Source of the DNA: Thalassotalea marina | GTDB taxonomy: Bacteria > Pseudomonadota > Gammaproteobacteria > Enterobacterales > Alteromonadaceae | Assembly (NCBI RefSeq): GCF_014656435.1 | Contig: NZ_BNCK01000017.1 | Coordinates: 1 to 35,017, forward strand | Reading direction: 5' to 3' | DNA: 35,017 nucleotides | Shown: positions 1,425 to 28,472 of the stretch, one piece after another | Numbering within the stretch: position 1 is the stretch's first letter | How the letters are laid out: every line of letters begins with the position of its first letter | Made by a program: the position numbers and the translations under genes | The notes under the pieces: generated by a model | Seen by the model: only the letters and a program-made list of their open reading frames with translations | Databases searched by the model: none | What the model was told of the DNA's origin: nothing

Positions 1425-1838
1425 ATGTGGCATAAATTATTATTAGCACTGTTGTTTGTTTTGGCACTAGCGGCCGAAAAGCTAGTGTTATCAAGTGTAG
1501 CTACTGATATACCACCTTCTCCTGCATATTCATTATTTGTTGATCACACATCAAGTTCTGTGGCAACCGATGATATTCAAGATTCTCTTAGCGTACCCAA
1601 TTTATATCGTCTAAACGCTTCAATTTTCTCTACCGAAAATCAAACTTCACCTAATTATGTATTAGAGATAGAGTTTTTTGAGGTCAAACTCACCGCTGGG
1701 CTTTATAAACATTTAGCTAATCCACCGTCGACGGTCAATTGGTTTGAGTTAAACAGTTTTACGCCCCAATCTTCGCGTCTTTCCGGCTGGAAAGACGGCA
1801 ATTTTCTCTACGTTTCTCAAGATATCTCACTGAGTTAA
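1425..1838 (+). CDS. VemP-like secretion-monitoring arrest peptide, leader of secDF
   Basis: This 137-residue protein has an N-terminal signal peptide (hydrophobic core about residues 5-17) and no recognisable enzyme domain. I chose the ATG at 1425; a TTG at 1419 would add two residues. The C-terminus, residues 118-135, reads RLSGWKDGNFLYVSQDIS. As I recall it, this fits the pattern R-[IL]-S-G-W-K-[ED]-x-N-x-x-Y-V of the arrest sequence of Vibrio VemP, which stalls the ribosome at a Gln three residues from its end. Here Gln132 lies five residues from the end. VemP is known to stall when export is slow and thereby raise translation of secD2F2. The same order, secreted short ORF then secD and secF, is seen here. 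The body of the protein differs from what I remember of VemP, so homology rests on the tail, the signal peptide and the gene context. Confidence 0.7.
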   Translation: MWHKLLLALLFVLALAAEKLVLSSVATDIPPSPAYSLFVDHTSSSVATDDIQDSLSVPNLYRLNASIFSTENQTSPNYVLEIEFFEVKLTAGLYKHLANPPSTVNWFELNSFTPQSSRLSGWKDGNFLYVSQDISLS

Positions 1839-2004
1839 TCCTTCCTATCGCAACTCGGTTGCTTATTACTTTCTGGACGTTGCCACACGGCATTTAAAAG
1901 TTTCCAGATTAATCGTTACGAAAAATAAACATTGATGCACTTAGCTGATTTTGCCTTGCCACTAGAGTATTGCGCGAATTTGGCTTAGGTGCTGTGAGAT
2001 ATTT
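1820..2004 (+). promoter_or_regulatory. Long-range RNA stem hiding the secD translation start
   Basis: The last codons of the VemP-like ORF (1820-1830, AGATATCTCAC) can pair with the secD leader (1994-2004, GTGAGATATTT). This gives 11 bp with one G-U pair, of which nine Watson-Crick pairs are continuous. The 3' arm holds the only plausible Shine-Dalgarno bases (GAG at 1996-1998) before the secD ATG at 2008. A ribosome halted with codon 132 (1818-1820) in the P site would cover the 5' arm and so free the secD start. The pairing is seen in the sequence; the switch is inferred by analogy with VemP. Confidence 0.6.
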
Positions 2005-2007
2005 AAC

Positions 2008-3843
2008 ATGAATCAACCCATAAATAGACAACACCATCACCGACAAAACCGATGGAGAAATTTGATCATACTCGTCACTTTGACGTTTATGTTAATCAGT
2101 GCTTTACCTAATTTATATACTGACAAGGTAAAGCTTACTTTAACCAATAGCGGTGAACACCAACAGCAAACTACACCTAAATATTTTAAAGATATATTGG
2201 CTCAAGCTAACATTCCAACCGATGAAATTCGTGTATCTAATGATGAAATTGTTATTACTTTGCATGAAGCGGCAGATCAAAAATTTGCCACTGAGTCACT
2301 AAAACAACAATTGGCAGATGGCTATCAAGTGACCTCTAGCCTGACCAATGAAGCACCAGCTTGGCTTAATGCATTTGCTGCTAAGCCAATAAAACTTGGC
2401 TTAGATTTAAGTGGTGGTGTTTTGTTTGTTTTAGAAGTAGACACTGACCGAGCACAGGCCGACAGAATTAAAAATATTGGCCAGGAACTAAAAGCGATTG
2501 CACTGGAAAATAAAATACGCGCGGTGAATGTATCGCCACTAAACAATCATGCTTTAACGGTTGATTTAACCAGAGCATCTAACGAAGCAAAAGACACCTT
2601 GTTTCCGCAAATCACCAAAACTTACCCTGAACTTTCGATTAAAAAAGAACAAGAGCATAAATATTTGCTTAGTTATACCGACGAAGCACAACAAACGTTT
2701 CGCCAAGAAACCATGAAACAAACGCTAAAAACCATGCGTGGACGCATCGAAGAATTAGGCATTACTGAAGCTATCACGCAAAAGCAAGGTAAAAACCGCA
2801 TTCGCATAGAACTGCCAGGTGTTCATGATCCGGCCGAAGCAAAACGTATTATTGGCGCAACCGCCTCGTTAGAGTTTTATCAGTTAGCAAGCAATACTGC
2901 GGGTTTTGGTGTCATACATATTAAAGATGAAAACGGTCGACAGCTAGCGCTTAACGGTAAGGCAATTTTTTCTGGTAGCAACATCAAAAATGCCGTGGCA
3001 GGCAGAGACGACATGGGACAACCGCTGGTCAACCTGACGCTAGATGGTATAGGTGGTAAAAAAATGTCGAATTTTTCCAAAAAAAATATTGGTAAACCTA
3101 TGGCCACGGTATTTTCTGAGTTTTATCGAAATGCCGATAACCAAATGCTTAAAACTAACAAAATTATTAATGTTGCAACAATACAGCAGCACTTAGGCTC
3201 TCAATTTAGTATCACTAATTTATCAAGCCATCAAACGGCACAAGAACTTGCTTTGTTGCTACGTGCAGGCTCTTTAACCGCGCCAGTTACCATAGTGCAA
3301 CAGCGTAGTATCGAAGCGACACTAGGAGAAGCCAATATAGACAACGGCATTAAAGCCCTGACCGTTGGAGTAAGTATCACTTTGTTGTTTATGGCATTTT
3401 GGTACAGATCATTGGGCCTAGTTGCCAATGTAGCATTAGGACTTAATTTATTGAGCTTGCTGGGTTTAATGTCATTGCTACCTGGTGCTGTACTGACGTT
3501 ACCAGGCATCGCTGGCTTAGTGTTAACCGTTGGTATGGCGGTTGATACCAATGTTTTAATTTTTGAACGTATCAAAGAGGAGTTAAAAAGAGGTAGAAAA
3601 ACATTAGCAGCCATTGAAAGTGGCTACAACAATGCGTTCACCACCATTCTAGATGCCAACATCACGACCATGATCACCGGCGTTATTTTGTATGCGATTG
3701 GCTACGGCGCGGTAAAAGGCTTTGCCATTATTTTATGTTTAGGCATTTTAACCAGTATGTTTACCGGAGTATTTGTCTCAAAAGCGTTAACCGGTTTGTT
3801 AGTTAGAGAAAACAAAGCACAGCTACTAGGAGTAAAATCATGA
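2008..3843 (+). CDS. secD: Protein translocase subunit SecD (second, SecD2-type copy)
   Basis: The 611-residue protein is full length for SecD. It has a first membrane helix at about 17-36, the conserved GLDLSGG motif at 131-137, a large periplasmic P1 region, and the C-terminal RND-type membrane block with VGMAVDTNVLIFERIKEE; Asp513 matches the proton-path Asp of E. coli SecD (D519). SecDF uses the ion gradient to pull preproteins through SecYEG on the periplasmic side. Neither tgt nor yajC precedes it, which is the usual setting of the main secDF, so this is probably a second copy, as in vibrios. It overlaps secF by ATGA. Its start lies in the predicted RNA stem with the VemP-like ORF. Confidence 0.93.
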   Translation: MNQPINRQHHHRQNRWRNLIILVTLTFMLISALPNLYTDKVKLTLTNSGEHQQQTTPKYFKDILAQANIPTDEIRVSNDEIVITLHEAADQKFATESLKQQLADGYQVTSSLTNEAPAWLNAFAAKPIKLGLDLSGGVLFVLEVDTDRAQADRIKNIGQELKAIALENKIRAVNVSPLNNHALTVDLTRASNEAKDTLFPQITKTYPELSIKKEQEHKYLLSYTDEAQQTFRQETMKQTLKTMRGRIEELGITEAITQKQGKNRIRIELPGVHDPAEAKRIIGATASLEFYQLASNTAGFGVIHIKDENGRQLALNGKAIFSGSNIKNAVAGRDDMGQPLVNLTLDGIGGKKMSNFSKKNIGKPMATVFSEFYRNADNQMLKTNKIINVATIQQHLGSQFSITNLSSHQTAQELALLLRAGSLTAPVTIVQQRSIEATLGEANIDNGIKALTVGVSITLLFMAFWYRSLGLVANVALGLNLLSLLGLMSLLPGAVLTLPGIAGLVLTVGMAVDTNVLIFERIKEELKRGRKTLAAIESGYNNAFTTILDANITTMITGVILYAIGYGAVKGFAIILCLGILTSMFTGVFVSKALTGLLVRENKAQLLGVKS

Positions 3844-4763
3844 GCACATTATCAACTCAGTTTACAGAAGATTTAAGTAAAGTGCGTTTGTTTAGTTTAT
3901 ACGCCGCGGTTTTGTTTGTTTTTATCGCCCTACTGGGTTTGTTTACTCGCGGCTTAAACTTAGGCTTAGACTTTACCGGCGGGTATTTAACAGAGTTTTC
4001 AACAGAGCGTTCAATAGCCCAAAGTGATATGGACAAGATGTTAAGCGCTTATTTACCGGGTTCGTTTCAAGTGAGTTCAGCAGAAAATGGTACTTACTGG
4101 ACGCTCAGACAAGCCGATAACGTGCAAAATACTGATAGTAAGATTTGGCTAACTGAATTTGCTCAACAAAATCAGTTAAATATTACGCCACAAGATTCCA
4201 TGTACATTGGTAGCCAAATTGGCGAAGAGTTAATTAATCAAGGTGGTTTGGCCCTGTTAACGGCAACGGTTGCTATCTTGTTGTACCTTTCATTACGTTT
4301 TGAATGGCGTTTAGCGATGGGATGTTTGGTTGCTTTGTTTCATGATGTCATTGTTGTTTTGGGCGTGTTTTCTTGGTTTGGTCTTTCGTTTGACCTCACT
4401 ATATTGGCCAGCTTATTAGCCCTTATTGGTTATTCACTTAATGATTCCATTATTGTGGGTGACAAAATGAGAGAGTTAATGAGAGCCAATGATAAAAATC
4501 CATTAGAAAGCATCATTAATGCAGCGATAAAGTCGACCCTGGTCAGGACCATGATAACCTCTGGCACAACATTGGCCACGATATTGGCTATTTGGTTTTT
4601 TGCAGGTGAATCGCTGAAAGGTTTTGCCGTAGCACTATTTACAGGCATTATCGTTGGCACCTATTCGTCTATAGCACTATCTGCCACTATTCCACAATTA
4701 TTAGGACTAAAAGCCGATCATTATCAGCAAAAAGAAGAAGAGATACTTTGTGACTTGCCTTAA
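3840..4763 (+). CDS. secF: Protein translocase subunit SecF (second, SecF2-type copy)
   Basis: The 307-residue protein carries the SecF signature GLDFTGG at 42-48 and the membrane motif IGYSLNDSIIVGDKMRE, with Asn201-Asp202 in the fourth helix where E. coli SecF has its conserved Asp. The ATG overlaps the secD stop (ATGA at 3840-3843), so translation is coupled and a 1:1 complex with SecD is expected in the inner membrane. A bidirectional terminator follows 25 bp downstream. Membership of a VemP-controlled operon is inferred from context. Confidence 0.93.
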   Translation: MSTLSTQFTEDLSKVRLFSLYAAVLFVFIALLGLFTRGLNLGLDFTGGYLTEFSTERSIAQSDMDKMLSAYLPGSFQVSSAENGTYWTLRQADNVQNTDSKIWLTEFAQQNQLNITPQDSMYIGSQIGEELINQGGLALLTATVAILLYLSLRFEWRLAMGCLVALFHDVIVVLGVFSWFGLSFDLTILASLLALIGYSLNDSIIVGDKMRELMRANDKNPLESIINAAIKSTLVRTMITSGTTLATILAIWFFAGESLKGFAVALFTGIIVGTYSSIALSATIPQLLGLKADHYQQKEEEILCDLP

Positions 4764-4830: not shown

Positions 4831-5817
4831 TTATATTGAAGGTTGAACCGAGTTTAACAGTTGTTCTGCTGAACGTAGCAGCTTGACTGTTTGAGCAAAA
4901 TCAATGGTGTTATCTTGGTTTATCACGCGATAATCTTTACTGTTGATGCAAACAGTCATGTAATGGCCATTGCCAAACCTATCAGGTTTTTTTACGTCAA
5001 GTTCAGTAAATGCCTTTGCTTCTTTGTTAATGATTTGATGCCAGTAAGAACGAAGTTCGGTTCTACTTTCCCCCTCAGCTACCCAAATTTTAAAACACAA
5101 CTTTTCTTCTTCAAGTTGCAGATACTGCTGACATTTATCATCGCCCAGCCAATGCCACCAAAAGCCAATAAAACCGCCTCTTGGATTCGCTATATAATCC
5201 CAATTTCCATCACGTAATTCGTTTTTCACGCAGGAATAAAATCCCTGCCAGCTGTGCCAACCCCATTCACTAATTGGTAAATGAAGGAAGCTTTTGACTT
5301 TAGCTGTTATCTGTATAAGGTAATCGCGGTAATTTAAAAGTATTTGATTTTGTCCCTCATACTGCTCCAATACTTCAATCATTTCATCTCGTAAAAACAC
5401 CTGATATCCATGTTCCAATACCGTTGAGTAGCAGCTTTGCTCTTCTGTTTTATAGTAAATAGGTAAAATGTCAGTGGCATTGAATTCTCTTTGTTCAATT
5501 TCTTTAACATAGCGTCGTAATTGATCAGAATGGTTTTCAGAGCCAGTTTTATCCTCGATAATGATGGGATATTTATTATTGATCACACATAAAACATCAA
5601 TGTGCCTGTCTTGTTTAGTTACTTTAATATCAGTGATCTTGCTGGGAACTGTTTTAGCGTGTTTTAAAAATATTTTAGTAATAAATTGTCTTGCACAATG
5701 ATGCAAGCTTAAATCATGGGCCGCATGCTCACTTTTAGCCCAAGTCAAAAACCAACAAATGAAAGCGTCTTGAGATAATTCACTGGTAGCAAAAGAAAAT
5801 AAGTTTGGTATTGTCAT
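4831..5817 (-). CDS. PD-(D/E)XK nuclease superfamily protein
   Basis: The 328-residue protein has an N-terminal PD-(D/E)XK-like fold: Asp74 in RHIDVL, then E88-D89-K90 in IIIEDK, and Gln99 after a short turn. This is the D...ExK pattern of the family that includes PF14281-type proteins. No methylase, restriction subunit or other defence gene is adjacent, so a role in restriction or phage defence is possible but not shown. The C-terminal half (from about residue 185) has a Trp-rich region, about 185-230, and no domain I recognise. A GGAC-type ribosome site precedes the ATG. Confidence 0.7.
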   Translation of the reverse strand: MTIPNLFSFATSELSQDAFICWFLTWAKSEHAAHDLSLHHCARQFITKIFLKHAKTVPSKITDIKVTKQDRHIDVLCVINNKYPIIIEDKTGSENHSDQLRRYVKEIEQREFNATDILPIYYKTEEQSCYSTVLEHGYQVFLRDEMIEVLEQYEGQNQILLNYRDYLIQITAKVKSFLHLPISEWGWHSWQGFYSCVKNELRDGNWDYIANPRGGFIGFWWHWLGDDKCQQYLQLEEEKLCFKIWVAEGESRTELRSYWHQIINKEAKAFTELDVKKPDRFGNGHYMTVCINSKDYRVINQDNTIDFAQTVKLLRSAEQLLNSVQPSI

Positions 5818-21677: not shown

Positions 21678-21686
21678 GAGGCCGTG

Positions 21687-23213
21687 ATGGAGCGCAGACA
21701 ATTATTAAAAACCTTAGCGGCAGGAACTGCACTTACTGCGGTTCCATTAAAAGGCTTTGCAGGCCAAGCGATAACATCATCTAAAGATTCATTAGCGGTA
21801 ACTAAGCAGTTGTTTGACAAAGCGTTAAGCTCTGCACCGGAATTAATCGGTTTTAAGGGCGCAACCAAGCCGTTTAACAAAACAGCATTGACTATTGAAG
21901 GAAACATCCCAAAAGATATCCAAGGGTGTTTTTATCGAAATGGTGCCGCGCGCCATGAACGAGCACAGCAGCGTTATAACCACCTTTTTGAAGGTGATGG
22001 CATGATCCAAGCTTTTCATTTTGAAGAGGGTAATATTTATCATCAAGGCCAGTTTGTTCAAACATCAAAATTTAAAAAAGAAGAACAAGCCGGCAAGTTT
22101 TTATATTCCGGCCCCGATAGCCAAATCCAAGGTGCACTTCCAGTCTCTAGCCCTGACGATATCAACACTGCCAATACAAATATTATTTCGGTTGACGGCA
22201 AACTTTGGGCGTTATGGGAAGCTGGCTCTCCCGTTGCCCTTTCAGCCGATACTTTGCAAACACATGGCGTGGTGAATCTTGGGGAAAATAGCCGATTTGG
22301 CAACAAGCTTAAAGGTCTTGCATTTTCTGCTCATCCCAAAATTGATCCTAAAGGTGATATATGGAATTTTGGCTTTTCTCCTTCGGGCCACATTGTGTTG
22401 TTTCATCTTAACGCTAAGGGTGTCACACAAAATGTAAACATGATTAAAACCAATTATAAAGGGGCCATGTTGCACGACTTTTTAATTACTCATCGACACA
22501 TTTTGATCATTTTGCCCTCTTTAGTATTGGATAGAACTAAATCAGGATTTTTTGGTGCCATAAATTACGATGCAAATTTGCCAATGGACGTACTCGTCAT
22601 TGACAAAGATACACTGACATTAAAACGACAATACAAGGTTGCCCCGGGATTTGCCTTTCATTATGGCAATGCATGGGAAGAGCCAAACGGAACCATTCAT
22701 TTTGACGCCTGTTTGTATCGCGATGCAAACGCCTTGCACTTTATGAAAAACATTATGCAAGGCGATCAAATGGCTGGCGTTGCGCCGGCAAAAACGACAC
22801 TTTACAGCCTATTCCCTGATGGGAAATATAAAGAAGAGCAATTAGAGGGAAGCGCTGACTTTCCACGAATTCATCCGTCTAAAGTCGGGATTAGGAATCA
22901 ATATTTGTATAGTACAGGTTCAACAGAGGTAGAGTTTTGGTTCGATTCTGTGTCACGTACTAATATGGGAAGTGGAAAAGTCGATAAATACGTTTATGGC
23001 AAAGACTTTGTCGTAGAAGAGCATATTCCTATTGCTACAGACGAAAATGAAGATAACGGCTATTTAATGGGCACTGCTTTGCACATTCCAACTAAACGCA
23101 CCTGTTTAAATATTTTTCATGCTAACGATATGTCCCAAGGGCCGATTTGCCGAGCATGGCTGCCCTATCATATTCCATTGGGCTTTCATGGTAACTTTGT
23201 TGCTAAAAGTTAA
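21687..23213 (+). CDS. Carotenoid oxygenase-family protein with Tat signal
   Basis: The 508-residue protein starts MERRQLLKTLAAGTALTA, a twin-arginine signal, so it is probably folded with its metal and exported. I chose the ATG at 21687, six bases after AGGAG; a GTG one codon earlier is possible. The four iron-binding histidines of the RPE65/CCD beta-propeller are recognisable: His206 (FSAHPK), His253 (LHDF), His315 (FHYGN) and His501 (GFHGNF). These enzymes cut double bonds of carotenoids, stilbenes or lignin-type compounds. Substrate is unknown. The DUF2141 gene precedes it. Confidence 0.88.
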   Translation: MERRQLLKTLAAGTALTAVPLKGFAGQAITSSKDSLAVTKQLFDKALSSAPELIGFKGATKPFNKTALTIEGNIPKDIQGCFYRNGAARHERAQQRYNHLFEGDGMIQAFHFEEGNIYHQGQFVQTSKFKKEEQAGKFLYSGPDSQIQGALPVSSPDDINTANTNIISVDGKLWALWEAGSPVALSADTLQTHGVVNLGENSRFGNKLKGLAFSAHPKIDPKGDIWNFGFSPSGHIVLFHLNAKGVTQNVNMIKTNYKGAMLHDFLITHRHILIILPSLVLDRTKSGFFGAINYDANLPMDVLVIDKDTLTLKRQYKVAPGFAFHYGNAWEEPNGTIHFDACLYRDANALHFMKNIMQGDQMAGVAPAKTTLYSLFPDGKYKEEQLEGSADFPRIHPSKVGIRNQYLYSTGSTEVEFWFDSVSRTNMGSGKVDKYVYGKDFVVEEHIPIATDENEDNGYLMGTALHIPTKRTCLNIFHANDMSQGPICRAWLPYHIPLGFHGNFVAKS

Positions 23214-25964: not shown

Positions 25965-28472
25965 TTATTCGTTACTGGAAATGGTCATTTCAGCAATTTT
26001 ATTGGCTTCTATATCGGCCTCTTTAAAATGCAGAGGTCGCAACTGAGGCTGCATTGAATACAATAGTGATTGATCAGTATTGTGCTCTTCCCCATATGCT
26101 CTGTTTTGCGAATAGCTCAATAAGCCACGAGCTACAGGTCCTTCATCGGTAAAGTTAACAACACTCATCCAGCTACTACCATAACCGATATGATAACCTT
26201 GCGCAGCGGTACTTAAAATTGAACTAGCGTCTTGCGCTGGGTATACGTGTCTCGGATTTAACGTACCATCGTTGCCTGTACGCGAAGTAAAGACGTTAAA
26301 ACCACCTTCTATGTTATGAGCTCCTGCCCATGGAATTTTGTCACCAGAAGGCTGACCATTTGGCAGACTGCGTTCAACAAATTGCACTTGGCTTAATTTC
26401 GCATCAAGCGCAATACCAGCTGCTTCTACTTTAGTGATCGCGGTAGCAAATTGCGCTAATACTGTATCATTTTTAATTAAAGTATTAGGCGTAGTTAACG
26501 GGCTTTCAGCGTCAAATGGCACATTCCACTGTGGATCAGTGGCAAACTGGAAGGCAAACTCTCTAAACAGATGAGCTGCTACGCTGTCGTTATTCATAGT
26601 GCCGTCCCACATGGCTAATGCAGAGCACCCCTCACTAATATCTACGCCATTTACCGGCGTACTACCTTTAGCACTACAAGCCGCTAATAAATCGGTTAAA
26701 ACCGCTTCCCCTAAATAATTTCGGTTGCCGACCAATGCCGATTCAACTTCCATCGGTGAAAATAGCCCATCGTCACCTGCCGCGTCTGCTAGTAACTTGT
26801 GTGCCATACGTGAGCGCAATGTTTGTTGATTACCTACTTTACCGTACAAAGGTGATACGCCAGTGATTGGCATGCCAGCATTAGTTAACCAAAAGCTATC
26901 ATTAGAGTTTTGTACATAATCACTACCCTCATATTTTGGTGCTTGCTCATAAGGCACTGCCCCTTCAAAAACGAAGTTAGAAATATGGCCAGGCAAAATA
27001 GTAAATCCTGCTGCTTGTTTGGCACCAATTAACAATGGGTTGGTCGTTAATTCGTGAATTGCTGTTGGCGTTAAGTGTGGCACGGTAGAGTCGTCAATAT
27101 AAAACACGTCACCATTTTTATCTGCTGACATGGTGTTATTAAAGATAACGCCGTCGTAATCTTTAAATGCTTGTTTAAACTCATCTAAGTTTTCAGATAC
27201 GTTCATTGCTAACCAGTGATCGATAATATCGAAGTTTTTTGCATTAGCATCTTTGACGGCAAACGCACCTGTATCAGTCCATTCAAAATTACCAGGAACG
27301 ACAATCATTGGTCCTTGTACGGTCGAATAAGTCATTTTGGCTAACTTAATGGTTTGCCCCGGAGCAACAGCAACATCGATCACCAATTCACGTTTATCAA
27401 TTGGTCTGCGTGTACCATCAATAAGTTGATTATTACCTGGTAAGGTATTATCCATAGCAAGTTGATACACCACAAAGTGCTCAGCGGTTGAGAATGTATG
27501 TGTCCATGCAACATTTTCATTAAAACCAATATTTACCACGCCAGGCATACCAGAGAGTGAACCGCCCATGACATTCATATGGCCAGGGATTGTGCTATGA
27601 AATTGCCAAAACCTTAGATTACCAGTATGTGGAAAGTGTGGATTGGCTAATACCATGCCTTTGCCATTTTCAGTTTTGTCTTTACCCAAACCCCAACCAT
27701 TTGAACCTAAATCCATTGGGTTCTTCTCGGGCAAACTAACTTTGGGTTTGACTGACAAAGGTGCAGAAGAGGCACTGGCGACTTTAGGATACGGTAAATA
27801 GCTTTCCCCAGGAGGCGCAGCTAAGAACATAGGACCTAAAAAGTTAGCAGCTCCCGGCAGTAAGGCAATACCTAATGAATACGTTAAAATGTCGATATGG
27901 TCAATCGGCTGCACCCAAGGTTGTCCTGCACAGGTGGCATCAATTTGAGCACCGGTATCTGCAAGGTATTTGTTATAACCTGCGGCATAACCCATCAACA
28001 ATGCTCGGCTGTTGTCTGACATGCTGTTGAAATGGGTTTGTGCTTGATGGCGAATATCTAATGTCAAATAACCAAAGTCATTAATCAAATGCTCCGAATC
28101 TCCTGAGCCCGGCACCATGTCGGGTCCGAAGTATTTAGATCGTTGCGAATTATATTTAACGATTTGGTCGGCTAATACGCAGATATTGTCTTTAGCAAAA
28201 GCATAGCCAACGCCATACGCTAAACTTTCAAGGTTGTCTGCCGTTACGTGTGGAACACCATAATCTGTCCAGCGAATGTTAGCAGTAAGATTACCGTCTG
28301 GAGCAAAACTCGGTATAGGTGAAGGTGTCTCAGGTGTTACTACAGGTGGTGGTTCAGGAGGTTGGTATGTACTGCTACTTTCATATTTATGGTCGTTTCC
28401 ACATCCATATAAAATGCTAGAGATAGAAATCAAGGTTATCGATTTCGCAATTTTGGTTTTGGTAAAATTCAC
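25965..28472 (-). CDS. Lipid-anchored penicillin acylase-family (Ntn-hydrolase) protein
   Basis: The 835-residue protein begins at a GTG (28472) 7 bases after a GGGGAG ribosome site. It has a lipobox (LYGC, Cys24), then a Pro-rich linker (about 36-56) and an acylase alpha chain. The self-cleavage site and nucleophile are in DLG-SNGWGLG, with Ser257 becoming the new N-terminus of the beta chain, as in penicillin G, cephalosporin and AHL acylases (PvdQ, QuiP type). Later landmarks include HTFSTAEHFVVYQL. The reaction is probably hydrolysis of an amide bond in an N-acyl compound outside the inner membrane; AHL is one candidate. Confidence 0.85.
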   Translation of the reverse strand: MNFTKTKIAKSITLISISSILYGCGNDHKYESSSTYQPPEPPPVVTPETPSPIPSFAPDGNLTANIRWTDYGVPHVTADNLESLAYGVGYAFAKDNICVLADQIVKYNSQRSKYFGPDMVPGSGDSEHLINDFGYLTLDIRHQAQTHFNSMSDNSRALLMGYAAGYNKYLADTGAQIDATCAGQPWVQPIDHIDILTYSLGIALLPGAANFLGPMFLAAPPGESYLPYPKVASASSAPLSVKPKVSLPEKNPMDLGSNGWGLGKDKTENGKGMVLANPHFPHTGNLRFWQFHSTIPGHMNVMGGSLSGMPGVVNIGFNENVAWTHTFSTAEHFVVYQLAMDNTLPGNNQLIDGTRRPIDKRELVIDVAVAPGQTIKLAKMTYSTVQGPMIVVPGNFEWTDTGAFAVKDANAKNFDIIDHWLAMNVSENLDEFKQAFKDYDGVIFNNTMSADKNGDVFYIDDSTVPHLTPTAIHELTTNPLLIGAKQAAGFTILPGHISNFVFEGAVPYEQAPKYEGSDYVQNSNDSFWLTNAGMPITGVSPLYGKVGNQQTLRSRMAHKLLADAAGDDGLFSPMEVESALVGNRNYLGEAVLTDLLAACSAKGSTPVNGVDISEGCSALAMWDGTMNNDSVAAHLFREFAFQFATDPQWNVPFDAESPLTTPNTLIKNDTVLAQFATAITKVEAAGIALDAKLSQVQFVERSLPNGQPSGDKIPWAGAHNIEGGFNVFTSRTGNDGTLNPRHVYPAQDASSILSTAAQGYHIGYGSSWMSVVNFTDEGPVARGLLSYSQNRAYGEEHNTDQSLLYSMQPQLRPLHFKEADIEANKIAEMTISSNE

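Follow-up and report, generated by a model that had tools for sequence, protein, structure and literature searches.

VemP of Vibrio alginolyticus serves as a model arrest peptide; its sequence is the one used in the arrest experiments on VemP described in the available portions of PMC5449182, PMC10987492 and PMC11470409. As far as those portions go, 17 of the 19 residues of its stalling window matter and both L153A and Q156stop lower stalling (PMC5449182). The sections of the three papers that deal with VemP describe arrest for Vibrio alone, and PMC11470409 presents the operon, in the part available, as specifically conserved among Vibrio species. PMC10987492 describes a cluster of VemP-like peptides from 339 genomes that share an RxxxWKxxNxxY-like motif; judged by the accessible part of that paper, the cluster probably includes non-Vibrio members. 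The paper's main text, in the same part, contains no discussion of tail classes or of non-Vibrio VemP. The accessible part also demonstrates arrest-dependent induction for a second system, uDF_RQH_Enterobacterales. Among the best-ranked literature matches, supplements and subscription papers aside, we found no report of VemP in Colwelliaceae, Pseudoalteromonas or Shewanella. Here we analysed a vemP-like locus in a 35,017-nucleotide stretch of Thalassotalea marina DNA, referred to below as the window.

The vemP-like gene and its secD2F2 neighbours

The initial annotation had pointed to a short ORF with a VemP-type motif in front of secDF. The gene is indeed there (Table 1), the arrest core is present, and secD and secF lie downstream on the same strand, the 3' end of secD overlapping the start of secF. 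A small uORF placed immediately 5' of secDF on the same strand is the gene order of the VemP family. The earlier likening of the pair to Vibrio secD2F2 was borne out too, SecD scoring above the PRK12933.1 cut-off and being of the expected type. The C-terminus of the ORF product is SRLSGWKDGNFLYVSQDISLS, followed by the stop codon, and the automated ORF list had set the start at a TTG two codons 5' of the ATG. Read by eye, the hydrophobic N-terminus is MWHKLLLALLFVLALAA; about 116 residues separate the probable signal sequence from Ser135, compared with a median of 133 for VemP in the available part of PMC10987492. Searches with the protein found nothing in Pfam at E ≤ 0.001 or in NCBIfam at E ≤ 1.

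As expected of a housekeeping copy, a second secD (secD1) is found elsewhere in the genome, on contig C9, where it adjoins YajC. Its match scored 651.6 bits, below the PRK12933.1 cut-off, with an open frame of 618 aa and two stops counted within the match. A SurA_N_3 protein (641-aa frame) and a TPR_21 protein (215-aa frame) of the same genome were read as PpiD-like and YfgM-like; PpiD and YfgM are described as helpers of VemP release in the accessible sections of PMC11470409. Four other genomes of the genus (G001-G004) gave no VemP-like match at E ≤ 0.1 and one SecD match each, scoring under the PRK12933.1 cut-off. Of the five genomes of the genus examined (G000 compared with G001-G004), one carries the vemP-secD2 cassette, which was thus either gained in the window genome or lost in the others. 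The window also holds, nearby, a PD-(D/E)XK protein (4831-5817) and a penicillin-amidase-family protein (25965-28472), as well as an RPE65-family (carotenoid-oxygenase-type) protein (21684-23213) with a possible TAT signal just below the cut-off.

Table 1. Features of the vemP-like locus (window coordinates).
Feature	Position	Strand	Remarks
vemP-like ORF	1425..1838	+	137 aa, ATG to TAA; homologues found
Probable signal sequence MWHKLLLALLFVLALAAEK	1425..1481	+	judged by eye
Arrest core R118-LSG-W122-K-DG-N126-FL-Y129 (VemP R139...Y150)	1776..1811	+	alignment, profile, codon comparison
Divergent 8-residue tail VSQDISLS	1812..1835	+	SecD2 clade usually xxxTTYHS-like
5' arm AGATATCTCAC	1820..1830	+	within tail codons, last base of Gln132 to first base of Leu136
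P-site codon (Ser135) if the stall is at Tyr+6, as V. alginolyticus Q156	1827..1829	+	inferred from register, PMC5449182
vemP-secD leader	1839..2007	+	169 nt
3' arm GTGAGATATTT	1994..2004	+	secD Shine-Dalgarno region
secD2	2008..3843	+	NF009545 PRK12933.1, 755.7 bits, cut-off 728
secF2	3840..4763	+	TIGR00966, 261.1 bits, cut-off 160

Relatives, arrest core and tail

A search with the whole window protein gave matches at E < 1e-3 in 9 of 59 genomes, one of them its own, and the resemblance therefore exceeds chance. A profile of 13 rows (A1), in which four weak matches were retained for their motif (L010, L012, L013, L014), was then searched at E ≤ 0.1 against samples of the family (83 of 295 genomes, 60 of these at E ≤ 1e-9) and of the order (97 of 394 genomes over ten families, 64 at E ≤ 1e-9); the two samples overlap, and secD was checked for part of the matches. 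Scanning named genomes yielded 70 loci matching R[LI][SA]GWKD[GA]N, which by their record titles belong to Colwellia and its relatives, Thalassotalea, Thalassomonas, Pseudoalteromonas and Paraglaciecola, and further to Shewanella, Aliikangiella, Kangiellaceae, Pseudohongiella and Vibrio. Homology to VemP was found with a second profile built from 28 relatives (A2): its single match at E ≤ 10 among PDB sequences was the VemP nascent chain 5nwy (E 0.0036), over 38 chain residues confined to the C-terminal part. This link between the family and the VemP nascent chain supports the earlier suggestion of a diverged VemP-type export sensor outside Vibrio. In a SecD2 tree of 90 rows, four of them SecD1, the window sequence fell on a long branch (0.41) within a 34-row clade composed mostly of Colwelliaceae (SH-aLRT 99); the nearest SecD2, from Thalassotalea sp. 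ND16A (L109), is 69% identical.

Some of the matches showed peculiarities of their own. VemP-like ORFs with secD downstream and a stop seven codons past Tyr were seen in Aliikangiella (L126) and Kangiellaceae (L154), and another in Pseudohongiella (L134), with no secD on the sequence piece examined; these three belong to lineages distant from Vibrio and Colwellia. Possibly decayed vemP copies are a Thalassotalea locus whose stop falls five codons past Tyr (L116) and a match with an internal TAG (G317:C3:24051-24383). A second VemP-like stretch, in three pieces, lies at G221:C1:1137705-1138086, distant from the intact copy at C1:3357368. The match in the record named Endozoicomonas sp. G2_1 (L091) is identical to that of G005:C10. 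G005 belongs to the same family as the window, and the record name therefore looks wrong.

The window protein carries RxxxWKxxNxxY near its C-terminus. The initial annotation had fitted this region to R-x-S-G-W-K-x-x-N-x-x-Y-V and had set conservation of GWK..N..Y in related genomes as a test beforehand. The core was found to be kept in relatives; conservation did not extend to the V of YV or to what follows it. R, W and Y occur in all nine unfiltered matches, K in eight (Q in L005) and N in eight (R in L007), and in the A1 rows R, W and Y are invariant, with G, K and N at 90% or more. In a set of 119 non-redundant rows (residues in VemP numbering), every row has R139, W143 and Y150, K144 and N147 are each found in 118 and G142 in 116. 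That R, W, K and Y hardly vary is partly by construction, because rows were chosen by motif (R/K, W, Y/F/H, with K/Q/R/N also required for a set of 102 rows). Only rows with secD downstream were counted in the 102-row set, and six motif rows without secD on the piece examined (L081, L134, L149, L156, L159, L160) were dropped from the 119-row comparison. We also compared the 12 core codons of the window with those of eight relatives. Six of them differ by 5-6 synonymous and no non-synonymous changes, L099 by five synonymous and one non-synonymous, and L109, nearest by SecD2, by one synonymous and two non-synonymous. This mostly synonymous change points to selection on the peptide.

Past the Tyr, the usual tail in Colwelliaceae, Pseudoalteromonas and Paraglaciecola is (T/I)TY(H/L)S-stop. 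Tails like SHHHIRFS-stop or SHQHARFS-stop are found in Shewanella and two named Vibrio rows, the rows of family f21 (probably Vibrio) end in SHFRELLS-stop, RFISQADA-stop or VALNSQFSA-stop, and the tail of family f2 is SHRQYPAVITSV-stop. In these alignments only the mid-tunnel core is common to the family, and the final residues vary by clade, a pattern that goes beyond the published accounts consulted. At Tyr+3, +4 and +6 the window has Q, D and S; L153, N154 and Q156 are absent. Eleven of the 119 rows have both L153 and N154, and these came without exception from a targeted search with the V. alginolyticus tail as query; all three residues are found in seven of the 119. Since the window has neither these residues nor the TTYHS-like tail of its clade, its arrest could be weak or lost. 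Gln132, earlier proposed as the stall-site residue, was ruled out by the ungapped register with VemP HRISGWKETNAMYVALNSQFSA (available part of PMC5449182): it aligns with L153, and the residue aligned with Q156 (Tyr+6) is Ser135.

Tail length and the last codon are more regular. The stop lies exactly eight codons past Tyr in 85 of the 102 rows with secD; 76 of these 85 tails end in Ser, encoded by AGY in 72, and the window keeps both the eight-codon tail and the terminal AGT-TAA (1833-1838). Elsewhere in the same frames, 587 of the 1501 remaining Ser codons are AGY (39%, counted from the preceding stop codon, so that a few codons 5' of the true starts are included); the share is 50% in secD2 and 4 of 14 at the terminal Ser of other long ORFs. 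The bias relative to the same frames has a Fisher p of 9e-24, shared ancestry being ignored. In the V. alginolyticus-like loci L161-L163 the Ser at that place is TCT or TCC. RNA pairing, the identity of the tRNA or the context of termination could account for the AGY bias.

RNA pairing at the secD start

The two arms listed in Table 1 are complementary without a break over 11 nt, with a single G-U pair (contiguous-helix test with 200 shuffles, p 0.015). The same contiguous-helix test was applied to 97 mutually related loci, i.e. the 102 rows minus five with badly set secD starts. It gave p ≤ 0.05 in 32 and p ≤ 0.01 in 19, and the mean best helix was -12.0 kcal/mol for matched compared with -9.4 kcal/mol for mismatched pairs. 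RNAduplex, which allows bulges, gave p ≤ 0.05 in 15 of the 97 loci and p 0.105 for the window. The contiguous-helix test was adopted because the RNAduplex test is weak; it was chosen after the RNAduplex result was known and covers shorter stretches (to stop+25 as against stop+35, and start -20..+9 as against -25..+12). In 27 of the 32 loci the arm begins at the vemP stop or immediately after it, 9-14 nt beyond the first base of the Tyr+6 codon. The window, L086 and L087 have the start of the arm 7 nt ahead of that base, inside the tail codons. The one further clade row that lacks a TY tail, L004, has a 13-nt arm that begins 4 nt beyond the base and thus reaches into the coding tail. Complementarity between the secD Shine-Dalgarno region and the tail codons of the putative arrest peptide, as in the window, likewise goes beyond the published accounts consulted.

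Covariation was assessed on an alignment of 23 leaders (A3). Besides the window leader it holds 22 from the 27 loci L091-L117 of the same SecD2 clade; L093, L111 and L116 were omitted for badly set starts, L097 and L098 for their long leaders (about 520 nt). In helix 29-38/324-332 of A3, the end of the vemP stop codon and TTCATCA pair with the secD start. Paired cells amount to 88.4%, a value as high being reached in 1 of 500 shuffles, and to at most 51.2% when the helix is slid. Nine cells show two-sided change (0 of 500 shuffles), with TAA/TAG of the vemP stop set against T/C in secD, and none of 500 shuffles equalled the covariation score; for two of the five measures, the number of pairs with two-sided change and that of further pair types, 64 of 500 shuffles reached the observed value. 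The window row forms four of the nine pairs and carries a shifted helix instead, a shift that would explain its odd tail. RNAalifold run on the A3 leader alignment returned no pairs and no consensus structure. A second candidate helix, between the TYH codons and a stretch about 20 nt 5' of the secD start, found no support (60.2% of cells paired, covariation matched by 97 of 500 shuffles).

A stall at Ser135 was modelled by making nucleotides through 15 past the first base of this codon unavailable. The cost of opening the secD start region of the window then fell from 15.0 to 9.6 kcal/mol (ddG -5.4 kcal/mol), a gain reached in 1 of 200 tail-region shuffles and the seventh of the 88 loci scored (seven were dropped for their starts and seven were over the length limit). 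The ddG was -2 kcal/mol or lower in 43 of the 88 loci, compared with 3 of 88 for a control mask ending upstream and 27 nt shorter than the stall mask, and the modelled stall hindered opening by at least 1 kcal/mol in nine of 88. Masks closer to secD in the window leader also lowered the opening cost, by up to 9.9 kcal/mol. As computed, the leader would thus contain an RNA element that hides the secD2 start and is opened by the stall.

A proposed secretion monitor and its relation to known systems

At the level of sequence, the locus has an intact ORF with a conserved core, an operon-like arrangement with secD2F2 and tail codons complementary to the Shine-Dalgarno region. We consider it probable that this ORF encodes a secretion monitor of the VemP family and that its stalling controls secD2F2. 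Targeting, stall, stall site and release are inferred by analogy with VemP. The N-terminus would target the protein to SecYEG, and the R-W-K-N-Y core would anchor in the ribosome tunnel, with a stall near codons 135-137. Under slow or failed export the ribosome would stall at the tail and cover 1820-1830, so that this arm could not pair with 1994-2004 and secD2F2 would be translated. Under working export, the pull on the chain would cancel the stall, the ribosome would leave, the helix would re-form and secD2F2 would be shut.

It is unlikely, in our estimation, that the ORF is a VemP relative whose arrest has decayed, with a core owed to recent descent, a drifted tail, and secD2F2 either constitutive or controlled by nothing but passing ribosomes. 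Decay would agree with the departure of VSQDISLS from the clade consensus, with the long SecD2 branch and with the absence of the cassette from the four other genomes of the genus, but the exclusively synonymous core differences from six of eight relatives, the high rank of the window's opening gain and the retained tail length and AGT-TAA end all argue against it. We give much less credit to a purely RNA-based translational coupling, in which any ORF translated through 1820-1830 would open secD2 and no peptide-specific arrest would be involved: the occlusion model does require merely a ribosome on the arm, but such coupling leaves unexplained both the homology to a known arrest peptide and a core whose amino acids are maintained across several genera as its codons change synonymously. 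That an ordinary secreted protein should resemble VemP by chance is scarcely credible, for just 38 VemP residues align but the same core stands 5' of secD in 102 non-redundant rows (filtered by motif and secD), with R, W and Y also in all nine unfiltered matches.

For the secretion monitor that we favour, we tentatively suggest a broader picture, which may well prove wrong: in the VemP family the mid-tunnel anchor (R-W-K-N-Y) would be fixed and the segment beside the peptidyl-transferase centre exchangeable, and outside the V. alginolyticus type most lineages would stall at the stop codon, with Ser-AGY last, eight codons past Tyr. The window tail would then be free to change, leaving room for the anti-Shine-Dalgarno arm to shift into the coding sequence. 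Natural variants that keep the tunnel anchor and swap the segment at the peptidyl-transferase centre let one ask which part arrests the ribosome. The same few codons can serve both RNA pairing and the coding of an arrest peptide, and the distribution of the family points to export sensing by a VemP-type peptide in several marine lineages beyond Vibrio.

Among known systems, uDF_RQH_Enterobacterales of Alteromonas naphthalenivorans resembles the window, according to the available part of PMC10987492, in being an alteromonad arrest uORF that precedes secDF2, with the Shine-Dalgarno sequence covered by a stem-loop. It has an RGPP motif, whereas the RAPP-like motif of RQH arrest peptides was not found near the C-terminus of the window protein. 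VemP of V. alginolyticus (PDB 5nwy) is, like the predicted window product, a secreted protein encoded by a uORF before secD2F2 (PMC5449182 and PMC11470409, in the sections available). The core R139-W143-K144-N147-Y150 is common to both and the profile matches the VemP nascent chain; the published model, in the accessible part of PMC5449182, includes a stem-loop over the secD2 ribosome-binding site to which the window is comparable. Unlike V. alginolyticus VemP, the window protein is devoid of L153, N154 and Q156 and does not have HRIxGWKETNAMYVxLNxx, the arrest sequence that places Q156 in the P site. Its stop comes eight codons past Tyr as opposed to nine in the V. alginolyticus-like L161-L163, and its pairing arm lies inside the coding tail. 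The window has the motif and gene order of the VemP-like cluster, as that cluster appears in the available part of PMC10987492, and the two are probably the same family. By its sequence we would file the window ORF in the VemP family in the wide sense, as distinct from the V. alginolyticus-type arrest sequence.
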